Source: Owenia fusiformis (lineage: Eukaryota > Annelida > Polychaeta > Sabellida > Oweniidae). Taken from it: a DNA stretch of 64,000 nucleotides. Position numbers and translations under genes: made by a program. Below are positions 8,681-35,464 of this stretch, piece after piece (position 1 is the stretch's first letter; every line of letters starts with the position of its first letter). Where the stretch lies: the NCBI GenBank assembly GCA_903813345.2, contig CAIIXF020000001.1, positions 9,585,598-9,649,597 of the forward strand. Reading direction: 5' to 3'. The notes under the pieces were generated by a model that saw nothing but the letters and a program-made list of their open reading frames with translations, was not told the origin of the DNA and did no database searches.

Positions 8681-8714
8681 GGCACAATATCAACGAACCA
8701 TGAGTTTTTATTAG

Positions 8715-9355: not shown

Positions 9356-9500
9356 ATGCAGAGTTTCATCGGAGTAGCTGGGGCGGTTAAAGCGCTCGAG
9401 GGTAACAGGGACGATGATACCATAGACAGACTTAACCATCGTTACACCTTTATGGTCATCGCCATTCTAGTAATCGTAGTGACAACTCAACAGTACGTTG
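9356..9500 (+). CDS. innexin alternative first exon 1
   Basis: Begins MQSFIGVAGAVKALEG, then the acidic segment RDDDTID, the family motif RLNHRYT and the TM1 stretch ending TTQQYVG. The donor is GTAAGT. It encodes the cytoplasmic N-terminal helix, which in innexins folds into the pore mouth, and the first membrane segment. It is the most diverged copy of the FIGA type and lies first in the array. ATG is the only start that gives the 145-nt length shared by all nine copies. Joined to 34175, it would make a full innexin. Confidence 0.8.
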
Positions 9501-11821
9501 GTAAGTTGGATTTTGTGAATGTAATCTATAGAACATTACATAATGACTGATTTGGGCCTGGAGGTCAATTTATAACTTCTTTGAAAATCAAAATATTATT
9601 TTCCTACAAATACACAGTAACATATATATTTCCAATCCGTTAGAGTAAGTCTGTGTATTCAAATGAAGAAAACAATTTTCACAGTATAATTAATCTATGG
9701 TTGATTTGATTCTTAATTCAAATTTAAGAATACAAAATTTATTCGAATTCAATGCAGACATCGTGATATGGATCTTCAACTTTCGATTCGATTACTTTTT
9801 TGAGGAAAAATAGATGGCAAATAAAGCAAACTAGCTGATACGATATGAACAAAATGTGATCGTATTCGTGTTTCATTTATTTCATTCATTATTTATTCAT
9901 TGCGGTCTGCATTTTCTTATAAGGTATCATTTAGGATGTGGATTAAAAATCAGTTAATGGTTCAGAAACAAAACATTTACAGAGAATATTTGAATGACTA
10001 AGTATGAAAGCATATCTAGATTAAAAAGGTTTTATTATCAAAAAATAGAATTGCATTTTTGGACCACCTTGTACACCTTTCTTGACCGAACTGGCAACTT
10101 AAATCGTTGCTATTTGTTGATTTGATGAGTATCAAAATGTATATTTTTTATATCAAACGGTATTTATATATTTATATCTGATATACTTTCACCTTTCAGA
10201 AAATATAAAAATGTTGATGTTCATCTCGTTTAATCTGGTCATTTGCCAGAGATGTCGTGATGTATTCTGCCTTTGGGCTTGTCTTCCTCGATTTGCTCTC
10301 GAGCGTCTTTAATTGCGTGCTTAACCTTTAAGTTGATTTCATTGACATAATACTCAGTCTTAACTTTCACAAAGTATACATACTTTCCAGCCCAATTTTA
10401 AAAGGACAATATGTCAATACCAGCTTGTAAGTTATTGCAAATACAGTAGTTACAAAAAATGTAACAATTAGTTACAGAAACCAAACGCCCGTTACGATGG
10501 CTACATTATGCTTCCCCTATTGGTAGTGACTTAAAAATACCGTATGGTGATTCATTTTCCTGCGCAGTTCATTGACCTTCCTACGTATTCTTCCTTCGCC
10601 CAATTATAGTATAGTATAACTGAATTGTATAAAAACAATAATAGTTTGTGTTGAATAATAATTTGGTGTTGACTTTCATACTCTGTAAGATTATGGTTAG
10701 AGTAACACATCGTGTTTTTAAATTGCTTCGTTACACTATTTTGACAAAAAAGCTTCAACACAGGCACAAATCATTATGGATCTTTTTGTCAAAATGCTTT
10801 CAAACGAATCAATTTAATCCTGCTGAGTAATGCCTCAGTCGCATTTGACCTACAAAAACCGTACGACGGCCGTAGCTTCTCAAAATCAGAAAAGGCTTAT
10901 CAGAAAAGATTACAGTACATAAGAGTATAATAAATCTTTTTTTTAAATCTGACAGTTCATGATGACGTTTGTTTCCTTTAGACCAAGCCTAAATAAATAA
11001 AAAATATGATATCATTTTTCAGGAAGCGTTCTTTATTGAATAGTTAAATGTGAGGTATGCTTATTTTATGGTGCGTGGTTGTACATTTAAAATATTGAAA
11101 CTGTATGTAAAATATGTACTAATATATTATTTAAGTTGAATTAATCGAGTTCTGCGTTGAATGTCTTTCAGGCATCTTTCAAAGGAGTTTATAAAACGCT
11201 TGGGTGACCAATATATGTATTCACATGTGTAATTTGAGTAAAAAACAAGTTCCCAAAAAATAAACTCGCCACTGGACAAAATGGTTGAACGATGATGTAT
11301 TACTTTCTTAATGACTAAGGCTAAAATACCAAGTTTTTGTACCACGGGGTATATCGATACAAAGCCAAACATGCCAAAATAAAAATGCAAATGGTGCAAT
11401 GGACATGGGAAGTATACAATTTTCATTCAACACTCAAAAGGAAGTGGGCGAAATAATATCATCTTTTGATAATAAAAATTTGAAGTGTGCAATTTTATGA
11501 TTTTTCATTTACGAGAAAAATATGAGACTAAAGAAGTTGAGGTAGTAATATTTGAATAAATTAGGTCAGCAAATGCTTATTTGGATAGATAAGTCCTGAA
11601 TATACAACCTTTAAATAAGGTAGGAAGAAGTACATGTAAAGTTTAAAACACTTTAGGGTATTTGAGCAAAATAGGATTCATATATCAATACATCCACAAT
11701 TAAAAACAAATTGATATCACACAAAAGTATCAAACAATTAAGATCAAAAAGACAGAAAGGAAAGTACCATTCATAAAGGAAACTACTCATTAAGAACTAA
11801 TCAAAATACAGTCGTGCCAAC
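9501..11821 (+). other. spacer between innexin first exons 1 and 2
   Basis: AT-rich, 2.3 kb. No further innexin exon or other gene seen; short ORFs at 10552-10830 and 11127-11426 have no recognisable similarity. It would act as intron for transcripts starting at exon 1 and as promoter region for exon 2. Confidence 0.45.
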
Positions 11822-11966
11822 ATGGATAAATTCTTTGATGCAGTTTCTGCAGTTGCTAAGATATCTCCGCGTCAAGACGAGGATGGGTGTGATAGGTTGA
11901 ACCACCGTTATACTCTGGCCCTCTTAGCAATATTCGCACTTCTATGTACAACCACACAATATGTCG
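11822..11966 (+). CDS. innexin alternative first exon 2
   Basis: Begins MDKFFDAVSAVAKISP, then RQDEDGCDRLNHRYT and a TM1 ending CTTTQYVG; donor GTACGT. It groups with exons 3 and 4 (FFDAV, KISP, CTTTQYVG), so the three are a local tandem expansion. It has an extra cysteine at residue 23, just before the DRLNHRYT motif, where exons 3 and 4 have G and S. Confidence 0.82.
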
Positions 11967-12544
11967 GTACGTATGTTCATGAACATCTACATTTCTCAAT
12001 AGTTACTTTAGTAGCTATTTCATTTTGATTTACAATGTTTCAGTTGTCGGTGCAAATACACGTGTATGGTAACTGATTTGTTCTGATGCATGGCTTTCGT
12101 ATCGAGCTAAAAGATGACTGCTCTTGGTTAGGGAAAGGCTTATTCTGGAGTTGTCGTTATCGTTTCATACGATTCAGAATGACTGTTGGCACATTTCTCA
12201 ATATTTCGATTCGCTTTTTTCTCATCTATACTGAATTAGAAACAACCCTTTAATCTAACCTTACCCAATCAAACTGGATGGAACTACATAATCAGGATTG
12301 CAGTCATAGATTCCTTTGTTTCCATATTTAGCTGGCAACTATTTCATATTCAAACTTTAATTTATCTCTAAAGCTTGTGAGACACAGAGGTTTTGGATCC
12401 CACAATAATGAAATTTCATTACAGTTATTTGTTGGGGTCAGGATAAAATCTGTTATATTGGTTGCCCTAGTCAGAGCGTAGTGATTCATACTCTAGCCTC
12501 TAGATCTCAGGGTAGACTGATAGTATTCCTTTTAATCCCATTCA
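11967..12544 (+). other. spacer after innexin first exon 2
   Basis: Non-coding, no recognisable element. Confidence 0.4.
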
Positions 12545-12939
12545 TTAATTTAGGGGATTTCCACATTCATTATCATACCTTGTTGAGAAACGGCAGTAAA
12601 ACAATATAAAACGCTTATATACATGTATATAGTCATAAACATTGGCCATCAAAGACTGCATACTCAAACATAAAAATGTGAAGGGCCATAACTTTTTTAG
12701 TAAAGGGTCGCGCCTGACGCTGACACCCAAGGATTAGCTGGTCTTTGCAAGTCCCAAGATCATTTTATATTCTTAAGAAAGCGCGTGTAGGAAGACGTGA
12801 TTACTTCTAGTTGAACGCCTTAGGTGGAACCAAATTTGAGTTGAGCCATCATTAAAATTGGACAAACAAACAGAATTAAGCTTTATAGATATTGTTTGAA
12901 TATTTAAAAAGGATATAACTGAGAACTGGCAATTCAATC
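12545..12939 (+). promoter_or_regulatory. duplicated 5' flank of innexin first exon 3 (candidate promoter)
   Basis: This flank is clearly similar to 13383-13742 in front of exon 4. Shared words include ACATTGGCCATC, CACCCAAGGATTAG, TGGTCTTTG, GATTACTTCTAG and GAGAACTGGCAATTCAATC next to the ATG. The copied block (12545-13225 and 13383-14042) includes flank, exon and start of the intron. A promoter in this flank is inference; no TATA box is convincing. Confidence 0.4.
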
Positions 12940-13084
12940 ATGGAAAAGTTTTTTGATGCCGTTGGTGCTGTAGCCAAAATCTCTCCAAGCAAAGATGAGG
13001 ACGGTGGGGATAGATTGAACCACAGATACACGATTGCTCTTTTAGCGATATTTACTTTCATTTGTACAACCACACAATATGTTG
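12940..13084 (+). CDS. innexin alternative first exon 3
   Basis: Begins MEKFFDAVGAVAKISP, then SKDEDGGDRLNHRYT and a TM1 ending CTTTQYVG; donor GTACGT. It differs from exon 4 at only two residues (E2/D2 and G23/S23), the closest pair in the array, and shares flanking sequence with it, so it is a recent duplicate. Confidence 0.84.
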
Positions 13085-13382
13085 GTACGTATACTCCCAA
13101 TCCTCTCCAATTTCATTTTGTAACATTCTAACAGGAGCATTTTGTTTTTCATCATAACTTCGCTTTTGCATTTACTTGTTTCACTTAAAAATTCACTTAA
13201 AAACAGCGACAAGGAACTCGTGGTTGTTCGTCTTGAAATCATTTTTTAATTCATTTACAAAAATCAACTATGAAATATAACGAATCAGAGTGCTTGTTTT
13301 CAGTGCAATATAACTAAACCATGGACAACCAAATGTATTTGCTGTATCTTAGCGTAATAATTTTAGTTCACGTTCATTAATC

Positions 13383-13742
13383 TATAGGGCATTTCCACAT
13401 TAGCCTTACCTTGTTAGAAAGGGGTAGTAAAACAATGTAAAACTTGTACATAGCCATGAACATTGGCCATCGAAGATTGCATACTCAAATATAAAAAGGG
13501 TGAAGGGGCCATAAATTATCCAATAGTGCTTAACGTTGTTACTAAATGGTCGCGTTTGACGGTCACACCCAAGGATTAGATGGTCTTTGGAGATCATTTT
13601 ATTCTCATCAAAGCTCGCGTGGGAAGACGAGATTACTTCTAGATGAACGTCGCTGGTGTAACCAAATTTAATTTGAGCCATTATAAAAACTGCACATACA
13701 AATTTAAAAACGTTATTTTAAACGAGAACTGGCAATTCAATC
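13383..13742 (+). promoter_or_regulatory. duplicated 5' flank of innexin first exon 4 (candidate promoter)
   Basis: Counterpart of 12545-12939. The best conserved part is about 13550-13650 (CACCCAAGGATTAG to GATTACTTCTAG), 100-200 bp before the start codon, where a promoter might lie. Confidence 0.4.
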
Positions 13743-13887
13743 ATGGATAAGTTTTTTGATGCCGTTGGTGCTGTAGCCAAAATCTCTCCAAGCAAAGATG
13801 AGGACGGTTCGGATAGGTTGAATCACAGATACACGATTGCTCTTTTAGCGATATTTACTTTCATTTGTACAACCACACAATATGTTG
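13743..13887 (+). CDS. innexin alternative first exon 4
   Basis: Begins MDKFFDAVGAVAKISP, then SKDEDGSDRLNHRYT and the same TM1 as exon 3; donor GTACGT. It is easy to overlook because read-through meets a stop soon after the donor, leaving a very short ORF. Length, phase and motif are identical to the other copies, so I count it as a functional exon. Confidence 0.82.
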
Positions 13888-14044
13888 GTACGTATACTAA
13901 ATTACAATCCTCTAAAACATAGTTGTAACATCCTAACAAGAGCATTTGGATCTTCATCATAATGAAACTCATTTTGTATGCATTTAGTTGCTCCACTTAG
14001 AAATGCATTTAGAAATAGCGACAATGAACTCGTAGTTGTCAATA

Positions 14045-14330
14045 TGCAACTTCTTCAAATTCTTATAACTTCCAATAACTTAATAAGTACGTATATACTG
14101 TTTAGACTGACTTCAAACGTTTACTGTCAACATATATAAAAAATATCATCAGTTCCAACAAATTTCTGCCAATATCTGTTACCCTGGCAAGATATTGAAT
14201 GTCGAAAAAGGTAAAAAAGGTATTTTTCAACTTGCTTCAAATTCATCAATTTCCTTTTCAAAATCATCTTCAAGCTTTCAGAAGTTAAAATCTTACTTTA
14301 GATTTGAAACAATTGTTACACTGTTGGTCA
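14045..14330. repeat. dispersed repeat shared with 52690-52925
   Basis: Matches the reverse complement of a stretch in a TAF2 intron. Shared words, with small differences, include the complement of AAACAGTACTTGTTTAGTTA, TTTCTGCCAATATCT, TTTTTCAACTTGCTTCAAAT and AAAATCATCT. Two copies on opposite strands, 38 kb apart, point to a mobile or formerly mobile family of about 250 bp. Confidence 0.55.
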
Positions 14331-16370
14331 CAGGTGGTGACGTTTTATCATATTAATGCCTCGTTTTGTCATAAAGCATCTGTAACACAAGATTCCGAAC
14401 CTGATGGCTGGTATAAAAAATAAACACAATTCAAACATTCCAATATAAAAATATCAAGGGGAAACAAAATTTTCTCCGCTGACAATGCCTCTTTAACGAT
14501 GGCCTTGTTAAATGACAACCTTGTCAGCCAGGACTAAATTCTATGTGTTCCAGACCTTGACTTTTGGACGTTAAATTTTAATCGACGTTAGGGTTGTGGG
14601 TTTGCCCTTTTTTACAAATATCTGATAATAAATGATTTATGGATTAAGGTCAATTGTAAATCATCAGGCCTCGAAATTATACATTGTTGTATACTGGCGC
14701 CATGAAGAATATTTAATAGTGTCAATGTACGATAATATAAGAAACGTGAAATTTAAAGTCATACTTGAAATATAACGCATCGAAAAAGAATCATAATTTT
14801 TACGTTATCACTGTTTGGCCATTTTAATTGACCGGTGCCATAAACCTGCCATCCACCCCGATGTGAAATTCCCACTCTACTCCTACCATTTGAATTCCGC
14901 GCAAATCAGCATAAGTCAGCACTTCTTCCTCTTACCATCACCATTAGGGTGTCAACCATTGAATGAGAGAGCGAAATTCGTCTTGGATTTTCATGTTAGA
15001 AAACGGAAAGAAATCAAAGATCGTGTATCACGTGTAATTAAAATTAACCAGATTTATAGCTCCATTATAAGAATATATTTGGATATCAACTAACGGTATG
15101 GATTAAGAGACCATCGTCACTTTAAATGTACATCTCAGCATTTCGAATCCAATTACATAGGCAAATGACATCAATTAAAATTTAATTCTTGAAATATAAC
15201 TTACTAGTAATCAACATTTAAATGATATGAAACTAAACTCTGATTAATACTATAATAAGTCTGTGCACACACGATTGACTCGGATCCCCACTCAGATATG
15301 AATATGATGGCACAATGATCGAAAACGCTCCGATATTTTGATTTCTATGCCATGCCCAATGTAAATTCTACCCGTTACCCATTTAGATTGTATTTTGGAG
15401 ATCAGACTGTGCCCCCTTAACAATTAATCTCAAAACGACTTTCGCTTGATCTTTTGAAGTTGAATTTTTATTGCCAACCAATTATGTGTGTTTTTATATT
15501 ACAAGGTTCATTGTTTGTCTATCTCCAAACATAATATTTTGCACGTTCATCACGTTGAATGTCGTTCCGCACTGCATCGAGCATCTTGAACTGTCTGAGG
15601 TATCCTTTCTCCGAAGAAGGACTTCGAGGGCTCGGTGTGGCATCAAGAAATTGAGCTATTTTTCTGAGAGACTATATTTTAATATGATGATTTAAGATGC
15701 TTCTTGGTTTCTGGCTTCAAATGAAATTGCGTAGAGAAAATGTTCATCTTTGATTTTTCAATTTGTAGTTTTGAAAATTAAAATCTTGATAGAAAAGATG
15801 AAGAATGCCCCTTTTCTCTTCATTGGCTATGCATCCGATGATAGATAAAGAGGATATCCACTGGAAGATATCCTCGGGATTCAAAGTATCCGAGTCATTC
15901 TTTTTTTAAGGCATTAGTGTATGATAATGTAGATACGAATCGTATACAGCAATCGTGCATGTTGTTCATGGATTAACTGGTATAGGGTCAATCCTTCATT
16001 TAACTTCGGATGCCTTGTTTTTTGATTGACCTGTATATATGTCAAGTATAAACAAAGAACATGTGGTTAAAGTAGATGCAAATTTACCTTCTCCGTAAAA
16101 ATCAAATTGCACGTTTCTCGAATGTGGTTGAATAGAGTCGCACACACATTAATGGGTAATTTATACCATAAGTAACGCCAGGAAGGCAAAACTGAATCAC
16201 ATTGAGAAATATTTATGTTTGATGCCAAAACAGGGGCCTCAGTCATTTAAAAAATCTTATCGTCGTATAGCTCGAGAAGTTAGGACACCATAAAGTTAAG
16301 ACATATAAAATTGAAACTCTGGCTCCTATCGTAACTGAGTTGGAGTTGGAAGGAAGACAAGATGGGGGGC
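14331..16370 (+). other. spacer before innexin first exon 5
   Basis: Two kb with no gene recognised. The ORF at 14815-15093 (92 codons) has no family features. Confidence 0.4.
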
Positions 16371-16515
16371 ATGGATATGTTTATGGCTGCCGTGAGCAGC
16401 GCTGGAAAACTGCAGTCAAAAAGGGATACCGATGGCGTTGATAGAATAAACTCTGTAGGATCTGTAGCTTTACTTGCTGTGTTTGTGCTTCTCACTAGTA
16501 CATCGTCTTACGTAG
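16371..16515 (+). CDS. innexin alternative first exon 5 (divergent)
   Basis: Begins MDMFMAAVSSAGKLQ, then KRDTDGVDRINSVGSV and a TM1 ending TSTSSYVG; donor GTAAGG. An ATG nine bases upstream (16362) is in frame, but 16371 gives the 145-nt length of all other copies. Where the others read N-H/S-R-Y-T/S, this copy reads NSVGS, losing the near-invariant RY before TM1. The exon is otherwise intact, so this may change gating or be the start of decay. Confidence 0.75.
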
Positions 16516-16564
16516 GTAAGGACGTCTTCATTGGGGAAATCGCCATTGTCATTCTCGACCGTAG

Positions 16565-16812
16565 AACACAGGGGTGGATCTGAAAACTAACAAGGGGTTC
16601 ACATTTCAAGTCAGAAAAAAATTTGGGCCACTAACATCAAAGATTGGGTCCAAATTTTGAAAACTTAAGGCCCATTTTCTTTATAATGTGACCTAAAATA
16701 TAAATAATAAGGCCTGAGGGGCCCACTGATGCCCTAAAAGGCCCATAATTGGGGCCTTACAATTTTGTGGGGCCCAACATTTTTCTGAGCCCATCCACCC
16801 CAGATCCGCTAG
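16565..16812. repeat. possible small MITE with GGGGTGGATCTG-like ends
   Basis: GGGGTGGATCTG near 16571 is answered by its inverted partner CCATCCACCCCAGATCC near 16790. The interior is rich in GGCCC words. No target duplication could be fixed. Confidence 0.35.
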
Positions 16813-18395
16813 CGGAACACTGGTGTAAAATACAGCTAGACTCCGGAGACAAATTCACCTTTCTCCATGTCTTACTTTTTATAAGTCCATGTTAAAAACC
16901 CCGAAGCACAGTGGCTATTAGTAATCATAACCCTCTGACTAAAAGACATAGAGTTATAAATATAAAGAAATAATTGCCAGCGTCTTAATCTTGCCTTAAG
17001 ACTTTTTACCCCTCCCCTCTGTGTTCTTCAAATTCCAAAGGTACGGGGGTACACTCTTGGGGCAAGACTACCTACAAATAAAGGTAGAAGAGGCAGGCTG
17101 AAGAGACGATGACAGCTATTTTGAATGGGCGTTCTTGCTTGACAAAAACCCGATTTGGGTGAGGCTAGATCAGAGAATTGTTTCTTCTTCCTTGAAAGAG
17201 TGAAGATGACGCTCTCTTTTAGAGACGCAGAATCAGGAGGGTAGAGGTTTTTGGGACAGGCTGTCGTTTTAACACTATATATTGTGAAATATATCTGTTA
17301 CAACATTCTAAGTCTGTATTAAAGAACAAGTAACCTGTCATGTTCTGAAGAATATATTGAGCACCTTTGTTTGAAGAACTAAAAACCTACTTCAAGTTTG
17401 AATCACAATATGCATGTCTGTATTGTTTTACCCTAAATAAGGCAAATGTATGATTGATATATTGGACCAAACAAAAACGAGTGTTTTTTTCTTCTGACGA
17501 ATATTTCGAAGTTTCATATGTACAAATCTAAAAGTAGTTGTTTTTATAACAAAATGGTTTAAGTTTGCAATATTTCGATTAATTCTATAATTTTTTTCAG
17601 GAACTAAAATATATACTTAGTTTCAGTTTGTACAAATCAAAGTATAGAAATGGTACAAATTAAAAAATCATTTTCTAAATCTGGTTTGAAATAAGGACAC
17701 TAGATAGATACGTAATAAAATAGATTATGTAAACAACACCTTCAGTTGAAGATAAGTAGTCAGCAAATTCCATTGAAAATTTTAAAATCTGAAAATTAAA
17801 GCTATATTTCAAAAAGGCAAAATGAACAGATGATGGCTCAAAGTATTTATCTTGCATGATCCACTTTTTACATTCACTGATTAGAGCAGTTATGTGTCCG
17901 TTGATGTAACATTTTGTAATAACAATAAACCCCAAAGCTAAAGAGGGATAGGCAGTAATTATAAATGGGCGAAATCAGAATTTATTTGTATGTATTTGAA
18001 AGCATATTCCCGTTTGCCCTTCACCAGCATTCATTTCACTTGACAAACTAATCTTTGAGAAAACACGTACTTTATTCGTTTGGCGTCAGTGAGTTTGTAA
18101 AGGTTTCTATGGATACATTTAGGAATTCTTTACAGATGCGTGGTAGTCAGGTATAATTGCATGTAGTACATTCATTTGCCATTGGGACATGTGAATAAGG
18201 TGATGTCGATCAGATCCACTTGACTAACCCTTGCTTCAATATTGAGATGACCCGTTTTGAACCTGGACTTCCACTTTTTTAACATCACCAGTACGCTTCG
18301 GGAGTAGGCCTTTCGCCAACCTCGACAACGATTCAAACAGGATAGGAGTGTAACACTATAATCGAGACTTTTAAAAAACATAAGCGTGAATCAAG
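16813..18395 (+). other. spacer before innexin first exon 6
   Basis: No gene recognised. The ORF at 17675-17935 (-) shows no family features. Confidence 0.4.
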
Positions 18396-18540
18396 ATGGA
18401 TCAGTTCTTTTCTGCGTTTGGGGCTGCTAGTAAGCTCTCTCCGCAGTACGATGTTGACGGGTGTGATCGGCTCAATTCTCGCTATAGCCTGGGTTTGGTG
18501 GCCATCTTTGCGCTTCTTGTTGGCACCAACCAATATGTCG
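18396..18540 (+). CDS. innexin alternative first exon 6
   Basis: Begins MDQFFSAFGAASKLSP, then QYDVDGCDRLNSRYS and a TM1 ending VGTNQYVG; donor GTGAGT. With exon 7 it forms the FFSAF/NSRYS/VGT subgroup. Read-through of the donor meets a stop within a few codons, so the ORF alone is short. Confidence 0.82.
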
Positions 18541-19048: not shown

Positions 19049-19193
19049 ATGGAGAAGTTTTTTTCTGCGTTTAGAGCAGTTAATAAACTCGCTCCTCATA
19101 GAGATTGCGATGGGTCAGACCGAATGAATTCTCGTTACAGTGTCGGGTTGCTTGCTGTGTATGCGCTGGTTGTGGGTACAGGCCAGTATGTGG
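19049..19193 (+). CDS. innexin alternative first exon 7
   Basis: Begins MEKFFSAFRAVNKLAP, then HRDCDGSDRMNSRYS and a TM1 ending VGTGQYVG; donor GTAAGA. It is sister to exon 6. R9 in the N-terminal helix and M26 in place of the usual L or I of the R-L-N motif set it apart; a charged residue here could alter pore selectivity, as this helix lines the channel entrance in known innexin structures. Confidence 0.82.
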
Positions 19194-20449: not shown

Positions 20450-20594
20450 ATGGAACAGTTTATAGGAGCAGTTGGTTCCATTGGAAAACTTGATGCTAAA
20501 TTCTATGACGACTCCGTTGATAAACTTAACCATAGATACACAGTTGCTGTTTTAGCAGTTTTCGCTCTACTTGTTTCAACATCTAGTTATGTCG
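20450..20594 (+). CDS. innexin alternative first exon 8
   Basis: Begins MEQFIGAVGSIGKLDA, then KFYDDSVDKLNHRYT and a TM1 ending VSTSSYVG; donor GTAAGT. It pairs with exon 9 (FIGA, GKLDAK, identical TM1). The reading frame continues upstream to an ATG at 20405, but the 145-nt length and the family N-terminus favour 20450. Confidence 0.84.
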
Positions 20595-21760: not shown

Positions 21761-21905
21761 ATGGAACGGTTCATTGGAGCCATTGGCTCAGTTGGAAAAT
21801 TAGACGCCAAACTTCACGATGATGCGGTTGATAGAATCAATCATAGATACACAGTCGCTGTTTTAGCAGTTTTCGCTTTATTAGTCTCAACATCTAGTTA
21901 TGTCG
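21761..21905 (+). CDS. innexin alternative first exon 9
   Basis: Begins MERFIGAIGSVGKLDA, then KLHDDAVDRINHRYT and a TM1 ending VSTSSYVG; donor GTAAGA. This is the copy closest to the shared exons, 12.3 kb upstream of them. It is the most typical innexin N-terminus of the nine and may be the ancestral one; that is inference from its consensus-like sequence only. Confidence 0.84.
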
Positions 21906-24065
21906 GTAAGAAAGGATACATACATATTGTTAATAAATTTCGCGATCGACCAAAGTTCAATTTAGTATATATTGAAATTTAACATAGAAACATTTCTCAC
22001 AAGTTGTCATGAGTTTACTTTAATTGAGCTATAGAAAACACTTTTGAATAAGATTACTTTAGTGTATAATTATGAGACGTCGGCCAGACAAAATTGGGCA
22101 ATGAGCAAAAAATGTTTAAAAGGAAGAATCAATAATAAGTACTTACACGAAATGTAATTTCAATCATAGCAATGACGTTAAATGAAGCTTATAATTATCT
22201 CAGATTCGTTTTTGGGGCTTACATAGGTTTCGTGTTATTTTTCTTCGTTTGTGTGCTTAGATTGACGATCATGTACCTTATGTTGCGTCCTTAGAGGTGT
22301 GTGTGTTTATTTATTTATTTAGATATACACTTTTTTAACAGTGGCACTCTTACATTAAGGTGCATCTAATCGAAAAATATCCACAATGCCATGTTGGTTA
22401 AAAACAGACATTTTATCAAACTAAAATGAGTCTTAAAAAGAATTAAAACATAGGTATGTTGATATTTACTTAAAATCTTATTTAGAAAGCGTTTTTAGAG
22501 TCGAATAAGACACCATATTCGTGTTGTTGACACGATCAATTTATCATTTGAAATTATATCTCATGGACATATATTTATAAGATATAAGATATAACTTTGG
22601 TAGTATGATACCTTTAGGCGTTTTTATGATCTGGCTATCTGTCATTCGATTCGATCCTGTTTTCTTCTTGGGGTGACTTGTTGCAGTTTGTTCAGTAGTT
22701 ATTTTGATATGATTTGTTTACTTTCTGCGATAAAGTTTCATAAAAAAGGATAGATATCCATATTTCTTTTATCTATATTTATGCAAAATAGTTTTTTGAG
22801 GGTGACTTTTACTTGTAATTTTGATATTACTTTTTTCAGTTGGTTTAGTTTGTTGAATAGAAGATGTTCAAGCAAATGATTTAAATAAGAGCTAAAAGTC
22901 AAGTTGAATTCTTGTTTTGGTCTAAATTACTCTCTTGTGGTACAAATCTTTGAAATATCAACTCGTTCGTAAGTGCTAAGCATAGATTGCAGCAACATTA
23001 GTAAAATTCAAAAAATAAAACACCCACAACCTGAATTAACAAAAAACACATTTAAAATGCATATATTTACAATGTCAGATGAATGTGGTTGTATCTTAAC
23101 AGTTAGTTATGAGGATATGGATGTTTCGTCGAAAGTCCTGTGTACATTAATGTTGCCCTTAAGCGGCACGAGTATTTTTTAACTGTCAAGTTTAGCGTCA
23201 TCGTTGTAACTTTACTACATTAACGACCAGACTCCTAGGTCATCGTATACTGTGAATCTGCTATAACGTTCCTAATTCAGTTTAAGTTCATTAATTTCAA
23301 CTTAATGACCTAATTTATTGAGGTTCAAATGTGTGTATAATTAAGCAATACTAATTTACTACTCCAGTTTTATCTTATACTCCTTGGGCCTGAACAGTGC
23401 TGTTAATTGATCGACAGTTAAAAAGTTAAAAGTTATATAACATGTAGCTCTTCTGAATAACAGCAGATCTAAATTGATCCTTGTAGAACGCCATGTAGAA
23501 TTGAATCGTTGTAAATTTAATGAACAATCCAGAATGTTCATTGTTTCTGGAATTCTATGACCACGATTATCAGGTTCAAATTCAATACATACATCGGGAC
23601 AAAAGTTGTGATCTGTAGCCCCAATAAACGACTGGTATTGCAACTGCAGTCTGGTCATTCTATAAGACATACTGTGATAGACTTACATTAAACGCGCCCA
23701 CAACGTCAAATTGATGATGAACGTGACTTTTGAGTTCAAACTGGCTGGTTGTCTGGTATTTCAATAAACAAAAATGCGTGCAGAATAAAATGTGACAGTT
23801 TTGAAATATGGAACAATGGATTGGTCTGGGGATAGTCTTGTAATGTGAAATGGACATTGTTTATTAATGGCTGTGGACAAAGAATGGCGTCCTTTATCGT
23901 GATATATAACTTGTGACCATACTCTGGACTCTGGACGTATCACTTCTCCGTTACTTTAATTTTACTAAAATATTTTAAGTATTGTTACAAATTGCCTTAA
24001 TGGTTTCATGAAATAGCATAATATCAAAACAAATTGCAAAAATCCAAATATAAAATATTTACATT
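21906..24065 (+). other. innexin intron before the transposon
   Basis: AT-rich, no further innexin first exon found. ORFs at 22973-23182 and 23359-23943 have no recognisable product. Confidence 0.45.
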
Positions 24066-24150
24066 CAGTAGAGATGCTGAGCTCGATTGCCGTATAATAC
24101 TTCATTTTAGGCACCATACGGCGATTGCCGTATCATACTTAAATTGTATA
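24066..24150 (+). repeat. left terminal inverted repeat and subterminal motif
   Basis: Perfect 30-bp TIR, then a second copy of the inner motif (CATACGGCGATTGCCGTAT). The GCCGTAT words probably bind the transposase. Confidence 0.8.
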
Positions 24151-25127
24151 AAACCGTTATTTTTCAAAATAAAGCTCGGGCGTAAAGACGTATATCTTGA
24201 GTTTGTTCCATTTTTTAAGGTACGTATGTATATTTGTATGTTTAGATCTTTAACTTGCTATACAATTAGCTAAGCTTGTTTAGCGTGCTTAAAATAGTAA
24301 GTAAATGAATAGCCTTTTGAAAATAAAATACCCAAGTCAAAAGTACACGGATCACTTCTGAAATACTATAAAAATCGAGGAAAATAATATCCAGTAATTT
24401 TTAATCATTCTTTGGAAATATCAAAAATAAGTATGGAAGCTATTTTATTTCTCTATAAGAAAGAAGATTGTTTTAAATGTATTTCCCTCGAGGGAATTAA
24501 AATTCTATCATTGGGAATTCACGCTATAGTCTTATGAACTTTAATGAAGGACTTTACCGTAAATTGACGACGTGATTTGTATGCAGCTGTACGTTAACAT
24601 ATTCCTTATCTTAACTTACCTTGCGTGCGTGGAGCTAGGGGCAACGTGAAGTCCAATGGTCCTTTAGTCTAGTTCAATAAATATTTTTAAAATAAATATG
24701 CCGCCTGGTTCATAAGGGAACCTGGGATAAGATGGCCTTTAGTGATTTAGTAGTCTTGATCCAGTTTTGAAACTATTCTTGCTCCGAGTAAGTCGTGTAG
24801 GTGCCAAGTTGGAAGGTGATTCGAAAGAAGACTCTATTCTATTGTAGACAATGAATTAATGATTAGGTTGTTACAATTGGGAAACAAATGCAACGGGACC
24901 ATTTTCCCCCAGTTTCCCTTATTGCATTTGAGACTTTGTTCGGGGTGGTGTCAATTTAAATGACTACATGGTCTGATTTTTAAACTTTAAATTGCAGTAA
25001 TGAATAAGCTATTACGTAATTGTATATGGAGAACACTAAGGTACTATCTTGCCCCTGGCTCCCCTATTAGTGTGAACTTAATGTTGTCTTTCTAAAAAAA
25101 CTAATTTACTAAGTTTCTTTCTAGACG

Positions 25128-28100
25128 ATGGGGCGGTTCAAGACAAAACAACGTTGTGCATCCCAAAATATTCATGGCGAGAATAATGAACAAATGCACC
25201 AACTGATTGACTCAAAATATATAAAGGCTTCAACCAGAGACCGTCTGTGTGAACTTGCCCAAATAGACTTTTTTAGTTTTCGAAAAAGGCACAAACTAAA
25301 GCCCCTTTCATTTTGTAAATCCTGCATCAAAAACGTTGAATTAGAAAACGGTGGAAACGCACCCGCAAGAAAACAAAACCTATCACATGTTAATCACGAT
25401 CATAGTTACAATTCTGGAGGGAAAAAAGACAATGATATATCTATACAAACAACAAATACTATTCTTGATCTTGGAGATAATCACCAAGACTTGTCGAACC
25501 AAATGGAGACGTTGCCATCGTCATATTTAAAGAACCTAATCTATGCACTGGGGAAAATTATTAAACAGGAAATAAAAACATATTCTAACAACTCAAACAT
25601 TGATTTGGATTTTGAAAAATTACGCCTGAGCAATGCAGATTATTTCACGTCATGCCCAAAACTACTTGCAACATTGCTTTTAAGCATATCTGGTGTTCCA
25701 ATGGACTATACGTTTAAATCAAGCAATGTCCCTGGTCAGTATCCAGATGCATTAGAAACCCTAGAATACACGTTTTAAATCAGCATGATGCTTGTACTTC
25801 AAGTAGTTACTACTTCATGTTTGCTCTACATACGCTTGTTTTACGTTATATAAAGCATATCCCGCAAAACATATGTAACGATTTTTATGTGAATAGAAAA
25901 CGTGAAAAACAACTAAAAACTCGTGCGCGAATTATTTTTAGGTATTTCAAAATGCTTTATCACGCGTCAAATGTCCGCGCAAAATAATTTAACAAGGAAT
26001 GTTTATAATGTTCCATGTTCAGTTTGTGCATTTTAGTGCAACATACTTTTCTAATGACAGTGTTTATAGGCCTACCAGATCTTCCAAAATGGTGAAACGG
26101 AATAAACGAATTCAAATTTTTCTTTCTATTGCAGTTAACCAGATTTCAATAGAGCTTTGAGTTGATATTCGGGTCATTATACGACGTTCATAAAATTCCG
26201 CCATTAATCGCCATCTCCATAATATGACTACACCAGTAATGCAAAAGTGGGTTTAAATCTAGGATGAAGAATCCTAGGTTTGAATCGATGAAAATGAAAA
26301 AGTTTCAAATAATTCCTATCCATTTTCGCACGCTCGGTCTTTACTGCGTTCGACCGACGGGAGCCGAGTGAACGAAGATGATTTCTATCGGCAATTGGAA
26401 AGATACGTAAATGGTTTTCAGTGTATCTTGATACTGACCCTTGTATTTCTCAGATCCAGACCAAGATAGAAACATGGCGTACAAAATGTGCAAAACTGTG
26501 GAGTCCATCCTAAACCTTACCTATTTGAACAGTGTTCTCCCAATCCATTTTAGAGAGTCGGTACTTTTATACAGTTTAACGGGCAGCAAAATTGCACTTA
26601 CCGTTCTTAACAGAACAGGCCCATACGCCTCCTATGATAGAGTAAGAAAATGGCTCACAAATCTTGGGCAAAATACAATAGAGATAGTGGACCAACAAAC
26701 CCAAGGGAATGATACTAGTATACTAATGGCATTCGATAATAACCAGGTACTTAAAAAGACCTGGTCAATTAGCACAAAGAAAAAATTCAACGCTAGTGTA
26801 GTGACCATGATTGTTTCCTTCACGATTGAAAATGAACCCCTACAAAATAAACCAATGTTTTCACCAAATCAATGGAAAAACAAGCCGTTGACTGATGATA
26901 AGATTCAAGAAATAAAAAATCCAGACGAAAATCCAGCCTTTGCTTCAATACAAAACAAATCAATAAAAGGCTTCGTAGAGAAACGATTAAAAAAAATCAT
27001 CAGTGAACAAAAAATTCGAAACGGCAAAATGACAGATTTAATAGATGATACCATAGTTGAAAATAAGTACAATAAAATATTTCACGATCCATGCAACAAA
27101 TGTGGTTTGGAGGCTATCCCAAAGTCAAAACGTGTATGTCCACAATGTAAACAAAAAATTACACGTCAAAATGACTTTAACAACGCAAAGGATAAAAGTG
27201 ATAAAGGCGCTTGTGAAACAAAAAATAACCACACACCAAAAAGAACCAGAGAGAACGATTCAATGAAATGTGAAAAAAGGATGTCCGTAAAAAAATTATG
27301 TACGGGGAAAAGTATTGTTGAGATTGAAAATCCTAGGAAAATTAATACTGTATACGTAAATGATGTTCATGTTTTCCGTCCATATTTCGCGAACCCAAAT
27401 TCATATGAAAACTGTCAAAACGTTCTCATTGACATTGGTACAAAAGCGGGTGTCAAACAATATGGAGGTACTGCTCGCGAGTGGGTTGCTGTATGTTGCG
27501 ACGGGATGCCCTATAGTATGTGCAACAAGTTGCAATCGTGCACATATAGGTGTGGTTACTGTGGTGGTGTTTTTCGGGGGAAATCAAGTGTTAACAGTCA
27601 CACATGTTCTGAAATAGTACAACGTCAAGAATCAGACATGTCCATAGAATTTAAGTGGTTGCTATTAATTCCTGGACCTGGCCATATAGAGATGAACATG
27701 CTAAAATCTTTAGTTTCACTTACCTGGGACATTTTCTGGAAGGAGATTGCCAAAATATTTAATTTTAAAAGCGAACACGCATTATCATATGCTAAGAAAG
27801 TCAGCGATCACCACAAAGGGTGGGAAATGCTGCAGCTAACATATGCTGCAGTCATCGATGAATTGCTGGTAGTCTACGTAAGAACACAACATGACATGGC
27901 CAACTCACAAGAACTTAGTTATAAACATTTCATAGAAATGATAGAAAAGTCGGACGACCCCAACTTTAAATTCATGGGAAATACGGTAGTCCCATTGATG
28001 AATTCCATATTACTCTACAGAGAAGGCGTTCGATCGAGCGATTTCCAAAAAATGTTGGCAGCGAGATCGCTATTTTCAAAACTTTTTGTAGCAAGACACC

Positions 28101-28927
28101 ATCCAATCTATCGGGAACTGGAAGTGAACGATTATATGCTGTATGAAAAAGCTCCCGAACCTATTAAAATGTTTCTCGAGAAATGCAACTCTATTAATAT
28201 TAGCGGGGTTCCAAATTCGAATGAGGGGGCCGATTTTAAATTGGAGGCGATCAATAAGAAAGCACAGTATTTCCAGCCACCGAGGCCAAGCAACGAAAGT
28301 TGGAGCAATGTTTGTGCCAACTTCGACAATTTGGAAAATATACGCAATACTGTTTTCAGAGAAAGTGGAACAATCGACCCTGCAAAGCAGCGAGTAGAAT
28401 CTCATGCATCAGAGTCTGAAGATGATATAAATGAAGTACGATCATTATTTAGGGAACAGGCATACTTATTCCCATCTGATGAGAAAAAACACACCGATGT
28501 AACATGTTCTATCGAGTTAGATAAAGAGCTTATACATTTCAATGAAAAGGCTAAAAAGATGAGACAAAACTTTGTTCAAAATGTAGTTGATCACAACACT
28601 AATGAGGTTAAAAATGTGAACTTTAAAGAGGAACCGATTTTTGTAACCACTACAGAAAGGTCGGAGTACTTTGCATTAGAAAAACGATCAATCAAATCAT
28701 TAACTTACCTCATCCAACAGCAAATTAACGAACTGTCAAGTGACGATGAGGATGAACTTATTCTAAGCTTTGCTACACAGTTACAGGATATAGTGTCATC
28801 GAATAAAAACGCAAAAGAATCAAAGACAATATTGATATCATTGTACAAAGATATAGAGGATTATAAACTCGTGAAAGCGGTAGCTAACGATTTTATACTG
28901 GAACAAGAAGTCAAAGATGAAGTGTAA
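25128..28927 (+). CDS. transposon protein A, candidate transposase (DUF6589-like)
   Basis: Exons 25128-25734 and 26454-28927, joined by a phase-1 GT-AG intron (GTCAGT...TTTCTCAG), give 1026 residues; the acceptor-like TTTCTTTCTAG just before the ATG suggests a further 5' UTR intron. Residues 1-200 are basic and contain FCKSC. Later features are FDNN (D297), a zinc knuckle CNKCG...CPQC (416-434), CCDGMPY (D552), a second Cys/His cluster (569-587) and GHIEM (E615). Family members as I remember them from fungi and invertebrates share FDN, DG and H-x-E-M blocks, then the REGVR and GADF blocks also seen here. D297, D552 and E615 could be an RNase-H-type DDE triad (inference). No closer functional name is safe. 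Confidence 0.7.
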
Positions 28928-29105
28928 CATTTACTAATATTTCAGTAATATAATACCTGAGCGTGCATACATGTACTGACATTTACAGGAAATATATGAC
29001 AATGACTTTTACAATAACAACATGACATAGAGGCAATTCTATGTGTTTGTAAACAATGATATAATAGTTTTAAACGATTATACGAAATATGTATGTATAC
29101 ATATG

Positions 29106-29111
29106 AATAAA
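29106..29111 (+). promoter_or_regulatory. polyadenylation signal for transposon gene A
   Basis: AATAAA about 180 bp after the stop of the + strand gene, before the end of the convergent gene. Confidence 0.4.
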
Positions 29112-29435
29112 TATACCAAGTTAAATGACAGTTCATACGTAGCCTATACGCAGGATACGACATAACATGTATTAAAACAATGTGTATAAGAGAAAAAACA
29201 ACGCTTTGTTATATATAAAAATCTGTGTTAAAACAATTTGAATTGAGACCAAAGTCATTAATCCATGAATACTTTTCAGTAAAAATACTCAATATTAAAA
29301 TTAATCAAAAGAGCTCATTAAATTGAATAAATAAACAATTAAAAATATATGTATTGAATTGCACTGAATATTGATAAAGTAATAAATTATAGCCTGTACA
29401 GTAACATAAATTCAGTGTATAGGCGTAACTATGAG

Positions 29436-31053
29436 TTAAAGTTGTGTAATGTCATTCAAGTTAATAGTCGAAAAAATGTTCCTATCCATCGTCGCTGCTA
29501 CAGGTTGTGCTGGTGGTAGTGTCTCAACTGCCAGGCCTGCTTCTTTTAAGCTGGCATATGTCTCTGCTTCCATCAACACGGCGGCGGACTGGCGAGGCAC
29601 CTCTGGCGACATGATTGATTCCTGATCCTCTTTCTTTTCCTGGATGAAAAGGTATATATACAGATATATATGATCATGAATACTAGTATTTTAATAGTTA
29701 TGCGAACTGCCATGCAGCATACAGGAATAATACAATCGCTTTGGTTTTTTTAATGATCAACATGCAGACATGGTTCATGGTTAAATAACTGCAATCAAAA
29801 ACAAACATGGGTAAAAACAAAATATTGTTTATTCTTATTTTTCAATTTATTATATCAGATCTAATACTCTTAATTATTATCCATATCAAATTTGATACCT
29901 GCTCTTGAACGATAGCTTTCTTCGTCTTCTCACTAAGTATGTGGGTAGCTGCCCCCTTGTTGTTGTATCTCCGTTCATCCCCCCCTACTTCTGGATGTAT
30001 CCCCTCCTCCTGGTATTTCACAAATGTGTCTTCGTCTTGAGAATACACAAAGGCATTCCCCGCCTCATCAACGTACCTCAGAAATATCGAGCCTCTGGTC
30101 TTAGTGCACAACTGGTCTGCTCGTTTGATCAGTCCAGTGAGCCTATCTTTCTTCGCCTGGGCCCGTTTCCTAGGCTCGGGCTCATATTCATGAGAAATTG
30201 GCCCCCTGTGGTGTTTCCAGTTTTTATTTCTAAATCAAAAGAATTAAATTAAAAGTATGAATGTCGGATACATAGAAGTAGGAATAACCGAAACCTTCGG
30301 TGAAGCGATATGGGGAAGTCCCGTCTGAAAAGCGTAATTGATAATCGTCCCCGGATCATACGCATTTCAACAGAAATTCTACTTTTAATTCAGTTGCAAT
30401 TTACGAATTAGAATATCTTAGATCTTGAATCGGATAATAAAACACAAAGTTTACTTTGCATTTGTAAGTGGATGTTTCATCAATGTGTATAATAACGGCG
30501 AAGTGACAGAAAGTCAAGGGAGGACGGTCATTTTAAATCCCTGTTTTAAATGCAAGGGCAAATCAGTTTAATATATTGGCATGTTAGAGGTCATCTTGCC
30601 CTGTGACAAGTTAGTGTCAGACTGTCAGCTGTTCAATATACATATAGTGTAAGCGGTCAAGGGATCATTGATCATCTATGTACATGTAGATATTGAGTTG
30701 AATATCTGAATATTAATTCGAATAAGATCGTATCGTATTTTATATTTGAATTATGCAATGTGCTTTCCGGTTTGAGCATGCAGCCATGCACATGGAAAAT
30801 TTTACGGTAAACTTAGCTTGGACAATGCAATTGTCTATAAATCTATCAGTTATTTAATTAATTTCCTTCGTCAGTTACAATTTTAGATGTCAGGAATTTG
30901 AAACACTAAAACTAGCACTAAGCACGAATTTTGGAATGAATCTGATGAATACGCGTGGCAAAATATCAGGCACATACATCGAATGTAGTATTTTTCAAAG
31001 TACAGTACTTACGCTTGTGGTCCAGTTGAAGGTCTCTTCTTTGTTTGTGACAT
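29436..31053 (-). CDS. transposon protein B, MADS-box-like small protein
   Basis: Three exons on the minus strand: 31053-31013, 30229-29899 and 29639-29436, with GT-AG introns in phases 2 and 0, giving 191 residues. Residues 34-80 are basic, then read LTGLIKRADQL followed by a beta-like stretch ending NAFVYS. This matches the order of the MADS DNA-binding fold (T-G-I/L-x-K-K/R-A-x-E/Q-L, then strands). The C-terminal third is acidic and rich in P, A and E. It probably binds DNA, perhaps the element's ends, or regulates expression. The MADS link is my pattern match and not a search result. It converges on protein A with about 500 bp between stop codons. Confidence 0.65.
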
Positions 31054-31109
31054 TTTAATAATATTGTCTGCTCTCTTTGGGCGATAAAAGGTAAAGGAAG
31101 TAGTATGTA

Positions 31110-31246
31110 TACAATTGAAGCATTATACGGCAACTGCCGTATGGTACTTAGGATGGAATATCATGAAATTGAAACACTATACGGCAACTGCCGTGTGGTA
31201 CGTCAAATGAAATACCATACGGCAATCGAGCTCAGCATCTCTACTG
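31110..31246 (-). repeat. right terminal inverted repeat with subterminal palindromes
   Basis: Perfect 30-bp TIR (31217-31246) preceded by two copies of a palindrome of the type ATACGGCAACTGCCGTAT (about 31134 and 31182). Spacing between copies is about 45-50 bp. The right end has more copies than the left, as in many transposons with unequal ends. The promoter of gene B must overlap this region, since its ATG is at 31053. Confidence 0.75.
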
Positions 31247-31251
31247 ACATT

Positions 31252-32519: not shown

Positions 32520-33070
32520 AAGCAATTCAAACATGACCGTGCTCTATTCGAATTTCTCAACCAATCAGAATGCAGCATAGCCAATATAGAACGTTCTCTA
32601 ATTCTCCATAGATGCACGACCATGCTCTATTCAATCTGCAATTTGCATTGTTTTGTGTGACGTCACATCTCAGCTGCACATCTGGGGCTCTGTCCGGGGA
32701 TAGCTGTTCTTTTTTACTCCCTCCGTAACTACTGTAACTATTTAACTACTGTTTGCATACACCGTATAAAATCTAAAACGGGGAGTAAAATAGAACAGCC
32801 CAAACAAATTCTAAAATTTTTCCGGCCGACTTCAGAATCTTGACAGCATGCGTATTCTTCCTTCATGCCCGTTCCACAGACACGGCTTTTACTAATTTTT
32901 ATGTTTGAATCGGAATAAATAATGATAGGCCATTCAATATGGTGAAATTCAGCACTCGTTGGACAGAATGTTAGTACAAATGCACTCACCTTCGGTTCGT
33001 GCTTTGTACAACATTCTGTCCAACTCGTGCTGAATTTCACCATATTGAATGGCCTATCATTATTTATTCC
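32520..33070. mobile_element. foldback repeat, copy 1
   Basis: Starts with TTCAAACATGACCGTGCTCT and ends in a near-perfect hairpin at 32912-33070 whose arms of about 75 bp begin GGAATAAATAATGATAGGCC. The same two parts recur at 33517-34006. It is a non-autonomous foldback or MITE family without coding capacity. Confidence 0.7.
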
Positions 33071-33516
33071 TTAAGTTAAAGCAAATATCGATTTAAGATT
33101 TATCCGCATCCATTTCAAATAAAGAATGATGAGATTGGCCCTGGTATGTTTGTAGTTAGATTTGGATCACGCCTTTGATCAAACAAGAAGTCACTGATCC
33201 CTGCTGCAACTTCATCCATAAACAAACCCTACGTTGCTATAGGTGATAATATTTCAAATGAGAGCATGCACTAAGTTACCAGGTTATTCAAATAGTGAAG
33301 CTTGGTGACTGGACCCTCATTGATGCCTCAAAACCTCAAACGTCATTGACAAAAGTTCATCATGACTTTTGTGGTGTCCTTGCGCTTTGTTTGGAACACG
33401 ATGTTGATGTCAATTGTGAGATTGTATGCAATCAGTTTCAGTGGTGATTTTCATTACAATTGGTTCCAGTTCATGATTGCTGCCTTCTCCAATATTATAT
33501 GGAGTGTCTATTATTT
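33071..33516. other. spacer between foldback copies
   Basis: Non-coding. The 133-codon ORF starting at 33362 runs into the repeat and is not taken as a gene. Confidence 0.4.
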
Positions 33517-34006
33517 ATTCAAACATGACCGTGCTCTAATTGAATTTCTCAACCAATCAGAATGCAGCATAGCCAATATAGAACGTTCTCTAATTCTCCA
33601 TAGATGCACGACCGTGCTCTATCCAATCATCCGGGAATCTACGTATTGTATTTGCATTGTGACGTCACACCTGGGAATGGCGAAAATAACAGCGAGCTCG
33701 AGTTTGGTCATCCTCCGAAGCAGGTGTACAGGAGAAGATATTCTGGATTTTGAAGCCCTGTGATCGGAGGATGGAGTTTGGTGTATCTCATGTAGCTCCA
33801 ATCCCCAATTCTCTGAACAATGTTTTCATTTTTTATATGTTTGAATCGGAATAAATAATGATAGGCCATTCAATATGGTGAAATTCAGCACTCGTTGGAC
33901 AGAATGTCAGTACAAATGCACTCACCTTCGGTTCGTGCTTTGTACGACATTCTGTCCAACTCGTGCTGAATTTCACCATATTGAATGGCCTATCATTATT
34001 TATTCC
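33517..34006. mobile_element. foldback repeat, copy 2
   Basis: Nearly identical to copy 1 in the first 110 bp and in the terminal hairpin (33848-34006), with a different middle. Same orientation as copy 1, ending 168 bp before the innexin shared exon. Confidence 0.7.
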
Positions 34007-34174
34007 TTAAATATATACCACTATCCACACGTTCCATATATCAATAGGGAGTTTAAGCTTGCAATGTTTTTCACAACCTAAACGTATAAGGAAAATATTT
34101 AAGCGATGCATTGACGGTCGTTCCTCAACAATTTCATTGACTGCATTTGTAATCACTGTCTCTGTGTGTTCCAG

Positions 34175-34828
34175 GAGATCCTATGACATGCTGGACCCCA
34201 GCTCATTTCACGGGACAGATGGTCCAGTATACGGACGACTATTGCTGGATCAAAAACACGTACTATCACCCGATGCACGAGGTGGTACCGAGGGAGGGTG
34301 AACCTAGAGACTTTGACGTGACCTATTATCAGTGGGTTCCGTTGTTTCTCATGATCCAAGCCTTGTTGTTCTACATTCCCAGTGGTATCTGGCACATCTT
34401 CAACGATAAGACCGGTATCAATATACACAACATCATCGTAGCCTCAAACACAGTAGCCCAAGTTGTTCCTGAGGGTCGGGAGAAAACGATGAAACATTTA
34501 GTCAGACACATAGACGCTTACTTGGAACGCCAAAAAGAACATCGGAAAGGTAGACTAAATGCGGCACGACAATTTATGGCAACAAAGATGTGCTGTGTAT
34601 GCGTCGGCAAACGTGCTGGAAATTTCTTGTTGGTTCTCTACATGTGTTGTAAGGTTCTCTACATAATAAACGTAATTGGACAGTTGTTCATGTTGAACGC
34701 TTTCTTGGGAACGAAGTACCATCTGTATGGGTTTGATGTGCTGAGAGATTTAGCAGCTGGCAATGACTGGACTGCATCACCAGTGTTCCCCAGGATAACA
34801 CTCTGCAGCTTTAAGATGAGAGTCTTAG
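34175..34828 (+). CDS. innexin shared exon 2 (E1 loop, TM2, cytoplasmic loop, TM3, E2 start)
   Basis: The acceptor GTGTGTTCCAG and phase 1 complete the G of YVG from any first exon. In the joined protein (402 aa), extracellular loop 1 has C54 and C72, in DPMTCW and DDYCW. The innexin/pannexin signature YYQWVP is at 99-104 and TM2 at about 103-124. A basic cytoplasmic loop follows, then TM3 at about 199-224 and loop 2 cysteine C259. Donor TTAG/GTAAGA. Innexins form hexameric or octameric gap-junction channels and hemichannels in the plasma membrane. Confidence 0.92.
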
Positions 34829-35054
34829 GTAAGAAAATTTGATACTTTTCTTTCACACGTTCATTCAGACAGTTTTTTGTTTTCACCAATATCTAAGTAC
34901 TTTGCAATCGTTGTATGTAAATAAACATGTGTGTTAATGGTTATGGGTGGTATGTGGACAAAAATCAAAATAAGATATAACGAGATTAAGGATTGAGAAA
35001 TGTGTATTCACATTGAATGGTTATATTCATGGTTATGTTGTTATTGTTATCCAG

Positions 35055-35464
35055 GAAACGTCCAGCGTCATACTTTACAATGTGTGCTTCCGATCAACCT
35101 CTTCAACGAGAAGATCTACGTCTTCATTTGGTTCTGGTACGTCTTTGTCGCAACAGTAACCTGCATCAACTTCCTCTCTTGGCTCACCAGGATCTTCCAT
35201 GGAGCCAGGATGTCCTTCATCAAGAAACATCTCGCCTGGATGGGTAGGCTTAACGAAGAGGATGACCGTCAATTGTTCACTAGATTCGTTGATAATTATC
35301 TCCGCCCTGATGGATTTTTATTGCTGCGTTTGATCGCTAAAAATAGCACAGAGTTCGTAACATCAGAAATCATCGCTGGACTTTGGGATAACTACAAACG
35401 TGTGTATAGTGGAGGGATGAGCCTAACGGGCAATGATAAAGAAGAAAAGGAGAGTGAAGCATGA
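35055..35464 (+). CDS. innexin shared exon 3 (E2 end, TM4, C-terminal tail)
   Basis: Acceptor TTATCCAG, phase 1. It completes loop 2 with C276 in the conserved block RVLGNVQRHTLQCVLPINLF, then TM4 (about 287-310, FIWFWYVFVA) and a cytoplasmic tail of about 90 residues ending in acidic EEKESEA. The four loop cysteines (54, 72, 259, 276) match the two-plus-two innexin pattern. The stop at 35462-35464 gives a normal family length. Confidence 0.92.

Follow-up and report, generated by a model that had tools for sequence, protein, structure and literature searches.

Organization of the locus

The 64,000-nucleotide (nt) stretch of Owenia fusiformis DNA analyzed here (the window; C1:9585598-9649597 of the 498-Mb assembly, where C plus a number is a contig label) contains an innexin locus in which nine homologous first coding exons, numbered E1 to E9 in plus-strand order, occupy window positions 9356 to 21905 and are followed by a single pair of shared downstream exons (Table 1). 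A preliminary description of this DNA had proposed nine interchangeable first exons of 145 nt, each running from ATG to a phase-1 donor, and all nine are where it placed them. Each begins with ATG, comprises 48 open codons with YV at their end, and closes with one phase-1 G before a GT donor (GTACGT in three exons, GTAAGT in two, GTAAGA in two, and GTAAGG and GTGAGT in one each). The 145 nt are the coding part only, and the transcribed exons may extend further in the 5' direction.

Table 1. Coordinates of the first exons, the shared exons, and associated features in the window
Feature	Position	Strand	Remarks
E1, first coding exon, ATG to donor	9356..9500	+	phase-1 donor
E2, first coding exon	11822..11966	+	
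E3 copy of a duplicated cassette	12540..13230	+	about 400 nt upstream, exon, about 150 nt downstream; counterpart around E4; no body
E3, first coding exon	12940..13084	+	recent tandem copy is E4, 803 nt apart
E4, first coding exon	13743..13887	+	96% protein identity to E3
E5, first coding exon	16371..16515	+	
E6, first coding exon	18396..18540	+	
E7, first coding exon	19049..19193	+	
E8, first coding exon	20450..20594	+	
E9, first coding exon	21761..21905	+	83% protein identity to E8
Transposon-like element, about 7.2 kb	24065..31247	.	in the intron between E9 and exon 2; 81-nt inverted arms (83%); outside the gene product
Shared exon 2	34175..34828	+	first extracellular loop, TM2, cytoplasmic loop, TM3, start of second extracellular loop; limits inferred from INX-6 alignment
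Shared exon 3	35055..35464	+	remainder of second loop, TM4, C-terminus, stop; limits inferred from INX-6 alignment

The layout of an ATG, 48 open codons, and a GT at +145 occurs at 13 places on the plus strand of the window, nine of which are the array, and at six on the minus strand. Judged from these counts, the bare layout alone is not rare by chance; the homology among the nine exons, whose pairwise protein identities range from 29 to 96%, is what chance would not give. When the exons were compared in isolation with the Pfam Innexin profile, five of the nine matched at an E of 0.001 or less, none exceeded the curated cutoff, and four had no match, poor scores that we attribute to the shortness of the exons. 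When all nine exon proteins served as queries against the window, the best match outside the array had an E of 0.24 and no tenth copy emerged; genome searches with E1, E4, E5, and E9 likewise revealed none on the window's chromosome.

The preliminary description had also held that a single downstream exon pair serves the array and that every combination reads in frame to 402 residues. Joined to the two shared exons, all nine first exons do yield open frames of that length with a single terminal stop, and moving the acceptor by one nucleotide, to 34174 or 34176, destroys the frame (tested with E1). The combination that was scanned, E9 plus the body, spans the whole of the Pfam Innexin profile (PF00876; positions 1-333 of 333; E, 7.4e-106), and the same protein matches Caenorhabditis elegans INX-6 with an E of 4.7e-54. 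Alignment to INX-6 places four transmembrane (TM) helices, a YYQW motif at TM2, and two conserved cysteines in each extracellular loop, the cysteine pairs of these loops being named in the INX-6 paper (PMC5146279).

Exon 2 of this body lies 12.3 kb downstream of the array in the same orientation. Used as a query against the window, the body sequence recovered only positions 34177-35461, all other matches having an E of 1.7 or weaker, so that in place of the body after each first exon that a tandem array of whole genes would present, one body was found. Separate copies of exon 2 belonging to individual first exons, which the preliminary description had named as grounds for abandoning its reading, were seen neither in the window nor elsewhere on its chromosome.

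Selection on the first exons

A codon model fitted to all nine exons gave an omega of 0.061 (log likelihood [lnL], -1109.1, versus -1203.0 with omega fixed at 1), and values of 0.057 and 0.065 were obtained for the subclades E2, E3, E4, E6, and E7 and E5, E8, and E9, respectively; these values are rough, since most pairs approach saturation at synonymous sites. Fixing omega at 1 costs 93.9 log-likelihood units for the nine exons and 50.4 and 24.6 for the two subclades. The exons are under purifying selection. The young pair E3/E4, taken alone, gives an omega of 0.40 on only five changes.

Other patterns accompany these estimates. Variable columns in the nine-exon alignment number 38, 28, and 47 of 48 at the first, second, and third codon positions. 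Alignments of E2 with E3, E4, and E6 and of E6 with E7 start within 4 nt of the ATG and stop within 8 nt of the donor, while similarity between E8 and E9 starts 31 nt upstream. The flanks have diverged while the exons have stayed alike.

Related innexin genes and growth of the array

A search of the assembly with the Innexin profile returned 34 matches. Genome searches with E1, E4, E5, and E9 each recovered the same 14 first exons over at least 46 of 48 residues: the nine of the array, four on C5, and one on C10. The weakest query-target pairs within this set had E values of 0.2 to 0.9, and three of the four queries also matched, in part, the N-termini of unsplit innexins. The five paralogues on C5 and C10 each possess one first exon, again 145 nt from ATG to donor and with the same end point in the protein, at a distance from the body of about 1.0 to 1.1 kb on C5 and about 6.8 kb on C10. 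Since all five have one first exon per body, the nine-to-one ratio is peculiar to the window locus.

Three tandem whole-gene copies lie on C5 between 10.007 and 10.029 Mb. One of them (L032; C5:10014500-10019500) carries an in-frame TAG in its body and a first exon ending in VV in place of YV, flanked by two copies without such a stop, and is a probable pseudogene; its stop indicates that dead copies occur in the family. Elsewhere in the genome, six innexins on C12 and C263 (L001-L006), five of them on C12, match the profile from start to end in one frame and lack the first intron. Four tandem, divergent innexin/pannexin-like bodies on C10 (L036-L037; C10:9168000-9186500) are open from approximately the position of the window gene's first intron.

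A tree of bodies rooted on three intronless innexins joins the window body to the four C5 genes and leaves the C10 gene outside them (support, 100). Three trees of the first exons place E3/E4 with E2, E6 with E7, and E8/E9 with E5, with support of 55 to 100, and array neighbors tend to be nearest relatives, as expected from tandem duplication. When the C5 and C10 first exons are included in the tree on 48 residues, they are interspersed among the nine, for the most part with weak support (30 to 79), and the deeper order is not resolved. E1 to E9 as a single clade are not rejected (AU p, 0.22), and some lineages of the array may predate the split from the C5 genes.

The most recent addition is preserved in the pair E3 and E4. 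Their exons are identical at 140 of 145 sites (97%), compared with 80% over the 400 nt upstream and 78% over the 150 nt downstream (aligned sites, gaps excluded). Only 3 of 113 nonsynonymous sites have changed, far below the expectation from the flank rate (5.7e-8, with sites treated as independent). Synonymous change, at 2 of 31 sites, is also somewhat low against that rate (0.04), so some gene conversion is possible. The copied block consists of upstream DNA and exon without a body, which indicates that, at this step, the array grew by cassette and not by whole gene.

These data bear on the possibility that the array is a collection of relics, in which as many as eight of the first exons were left behind by whole-gene tandem duplicates that have lost their bodies and a single one, probably E9 as the closest, remains in use. 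Whole genes have been duplicated in tandem in this family, as the three C5 copies, one with a stop in its body, attest, and the first-exon lineages are old, with a common origin that the trees do not resolve. Abandoned exons would not be expected to retain an omega of approximately 0.06 or intact frames and donors in nine of nine cases, the body search of the window found no remnant between the first exons, and the youngest duplication took only upstream DNA, exon, and a short downstream segment and has since kept nearly all of its exon sites. We therefore regard this explanation as improbable.

Transcript starts or internal exons

A second possibility, which we consider about as improbable, is that E1 to E9 are mutually exclusive internal exons of the Dscam kind, with one upstream promoter, a noncoding leader, and splicing that picks one exon of the nine. 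Internal exons would need an acceptor each, and acceptors were scored by a simple, home-made measure with a threshold of 2.9, which assigns 3.2 and 2.95 to the true acceptors of exons 2 and 3 (the latter at 35055). Within 60 nt upstream, the best score is below zero for eight of the nine exons, which thus lack the acceptor directly before each variable exon that characterizes the Dscam type; within 100 nt it is below zero for seven. In the pairs described above that align from the ATG or from no more than 4 nt away from it, no conserved acceptor is retained in front of the ATG. An in-frame stop lies 9 to 81 nt upstream of the ATG in all nine. E1 to E9 look like transcript starts and not internal cassettes, and the missing acceptors before most of them imply separate starts.

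We think it likely, then, that the locus is a single innexin gene in which nine alternative first coding exons are arranged in tandem ahead of a constant downstream exon pair, an organization of the UGT1 type. The features by which a variable-first-exon cluster is recognized are present: tandem homologous exons, each with its own ATG, of equal phase, under coding constraint, and followed by one constant 3' set. Frame and donors would permit each of the nine to be spliced alone to the constant exons. The choice among alternative starts suggested in the preliminary description, by analogy with UGT1 and the protocadherins, agrees with the selection on the exons, with the stops that lie in frame ahead of each ATG, and with the fact that most exons have no acceptor in front of them.

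Several observations weigh against this interpretation. E8 has a site 28 nt upstream whose score, 2.85, is just below that of the true acceptor at 35055, and E9 has one at 100 nt that passes with 4.7, the only exon of the nine to pass at that distance; a 5' untranslated leader exon may exist for these two, as the mutually exclusive arrangement would require. Within 300 nt, two of the nine (E6 and E9) pass. The absence of acceptors is statistically weak, given that random stretches pass in only 8.7% of cases at 60 nt, 14.9% at 100 nt, and 37.8% at 300 nt, and its force derives from the need of internal exons for one each. Nor did the upstream regions yield a common motif: when the 200 nt upstream of eight exons were compared, E4 being dropped as a copy of E3, the most widely shared k-mers of 8, 9, and 10 nt, with one mismatch tolerated, occurred in 6, 5, and 4 regions, respectively, within the range of 25 random sets. 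TATAAA at -150 to -30 is present in two of nine regions against 0.12 per random stretch, with no clear enrichment. With neither a common motif nor clear TATA enrichment, the promoters themselves are putative. The intron that splicing would have to remove contains the 7.2-kb element, the genome match lists score the best candidates only, and first exons for the four divergent C10 bodies at 9.17-9.18 Mb, on a different chromosome, were not found with these probes.

Those four bodies without an identified first exon are what might recommend the notion that the array is trans-spliced to other bodies or serves genes elsewhere, which we consider very improbable, since their similarity to the probes is weak (E, 0.04 to 3e-8) and they reside on another chromosome, a matching body in the same orientation lies downstream of the array itself, and the five close paralogous bodies each own a first exon.

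With alternative first exons as the preferred explanation, the expected sequence of events is straightforward. Each first exon would have its own promoter, most likely in the few hundred bases before it, and a transcript begun at any one of them would have the donor of that exon spliced to the next usable acceptor, 34175. Later first exons lack acceptors, so a transcript from an upstream start would skip them on its way to the shared body.

What the variable exon encodes

By alignment to INX-6, residue 49, the codon of which is split by the intron, corresponds to INX-6 Gly53, and D21 corresponds to INX-6 D25. As described in the INX-6 paper, a short N-terminal helix faces the pore and TM1 is the innermost helix, Ile52 and Gly53 are disordered between TM1 and the first extracellular loop (E1 in INX-6 nomenclature), D25 holds the N-terminal loop to the cytoplasmic dome, and the hemichannels are octameric (PMC5146279). 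The position of Gly53 between TM1 and the first loop puts the exon junction at the hinge. The alignment thus agrees with the preliminary view that the variable part is the N-terminal helix plus TM1, and on this basis the variable exon appears to be a pore module, with both docking loops and the dome encoded by the constant exons.

Nine positions are invariant across the first exons, among them D21, D24, and N27. D21 is also invariant in the five paralogues and so reflects a constraint of the family, lending no support to a special fit between the array and the window body. The most variable positions are 3, 12, 15, 17, 18, 20, 23, and 45, seven of the eight lying before TM1, and the net charge of residues 1 to 20 ranges from -1 to +2. 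A difference in gating or conductance among the nine products is a reasonable inference from this variation. Each product would take its N-terminal helix, linker, and TM1 (residues 1 to 49) from the chosen exon and its docking loops, TM2 to TM4, and cytoplasmic dome from the constant exons, so that cells using different starts would build channels unlike in pore lining and voltage gating with a docking surface in common.

Other features of the window

The transposon-like element contains an open reading frame (ORF) at 25128-25778 with no Pfam match and another at 26441-28927 with a match to DUF6589 below its cutoff. A C3 sequence is 99% identical to the first 218 of the 828 residues of the element protein, which suggests recent movement. 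Two 203-nt copies that are 93% identical, each with a 61-nt inverted repeat (97%), are located at 32887-33089 and 33823-34025; about 150 nt separate the end of the second from exon 2. Beyond the innexin gene, a Glyoxalase-family ORF is present on the plus strand at 58300-58692. The ORFs at 4223-5092, 7233-8714, and 42533-43513, some open on both strands and some on one, are built from short units that recur, and they look like tandem repeats rather than genes. Outside the window, 11 of 15 homeobox matches fall within C1:17.97-18.47 Mb on a single strand, with one more at C1:56.85 Mb and three on C2, in agreement with the compact Hox cluster on chromosome 1, and Post1 apart from it on that chromosome, published for O. 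fusiformis (PMC9977687); a search for COX1 returned nothing.

Relation to known systems and significance

The arrangement resembles known clusters of multiple variable first exons. In the vertebrate UGT1, GCNT2, and clustered protocadherin loci, as described in PMC1885805, tandem first exons of near-equal length share one frame and one constant 3' set and have multiplied by duplication of the variable exons, all of which are likenesses to the window locus. The protein family and the animal group differ, and the vertebrate variable exons encode a large ectodomain or a substrate-binding domain where those of the window encode a 49-residue piece of the pore. The same source reports a conserved upstream motif for UGT1, the like of which was not found upstream of E1 to E9, and calls the UGT1, GCNT2, and UGT2A arrangements vertebrate specific (PMC1885805). 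For the window locus, unlike those clusters, separate promoters for the first exons are presumed.

The nearest innexin precedent found in the open-license PMC literature is Drosophila shaking-B, which likewise joins alternative N-terminal parts to a common remainder (ShakB-L, -N, and -N+16; PMC5412853). It has three variants as opposed to nine, and the excerpts consulted describe no tandem array of equal exons. When the N16 N-terminus was put on ShakB-L, rectifying junctions resulted, and the reciprocal swap did not produce them (PMC5412853), from which it follows that the body matters too. Innexin transcript variants exist in spiralians, as in Limax innexins 9x1 to 9x4 and 11x1 to 11x2, for which the available text describes no exon array (PMC8049302). 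PMC8580445 mentions alternatively spliced forms of Inx8 in the fly and of two innexins in Aedes, the latter C-terminal, and PMC6193117 mentions two ShakB isoforms. No innexin first-exon array was found in that literature, nor does one appear in the excerpts of PMC7052179, PMC12654950, PMC6193117, PMC8580445, and PMC5042512.

The first-exon array described here would place in an annelid ion-channel gene a design whose most familiar examples are the vertebrate UGT1, GCNT2, and protocadherin loci (PMC1885805). It would also allow a test, by natural experiment, of which part of the innexin protein determines rectification, the question left by the ShakB swaps.

The usual measure of innexin diversity is the number of genes. 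At this locus, a single gene apparently provides nine pore types that share one docking and regulatory scaffold, an arrangement that separates the identity of pore and gating from the identity of docking. We put forward, tentatively and as an idea with somewhat less than even prospects, that this separation constitutes a combinatorial code for electrical synapses: nine pore modules on one docking scaffold, built by duplication of promoter-plus-first-exon cassettes, would give channels that dock with one another and differ in conductance and rectification, mixed hemichannels included. If true, such a code would give gap junctions a diversity system comparable to that of the protocadherins.

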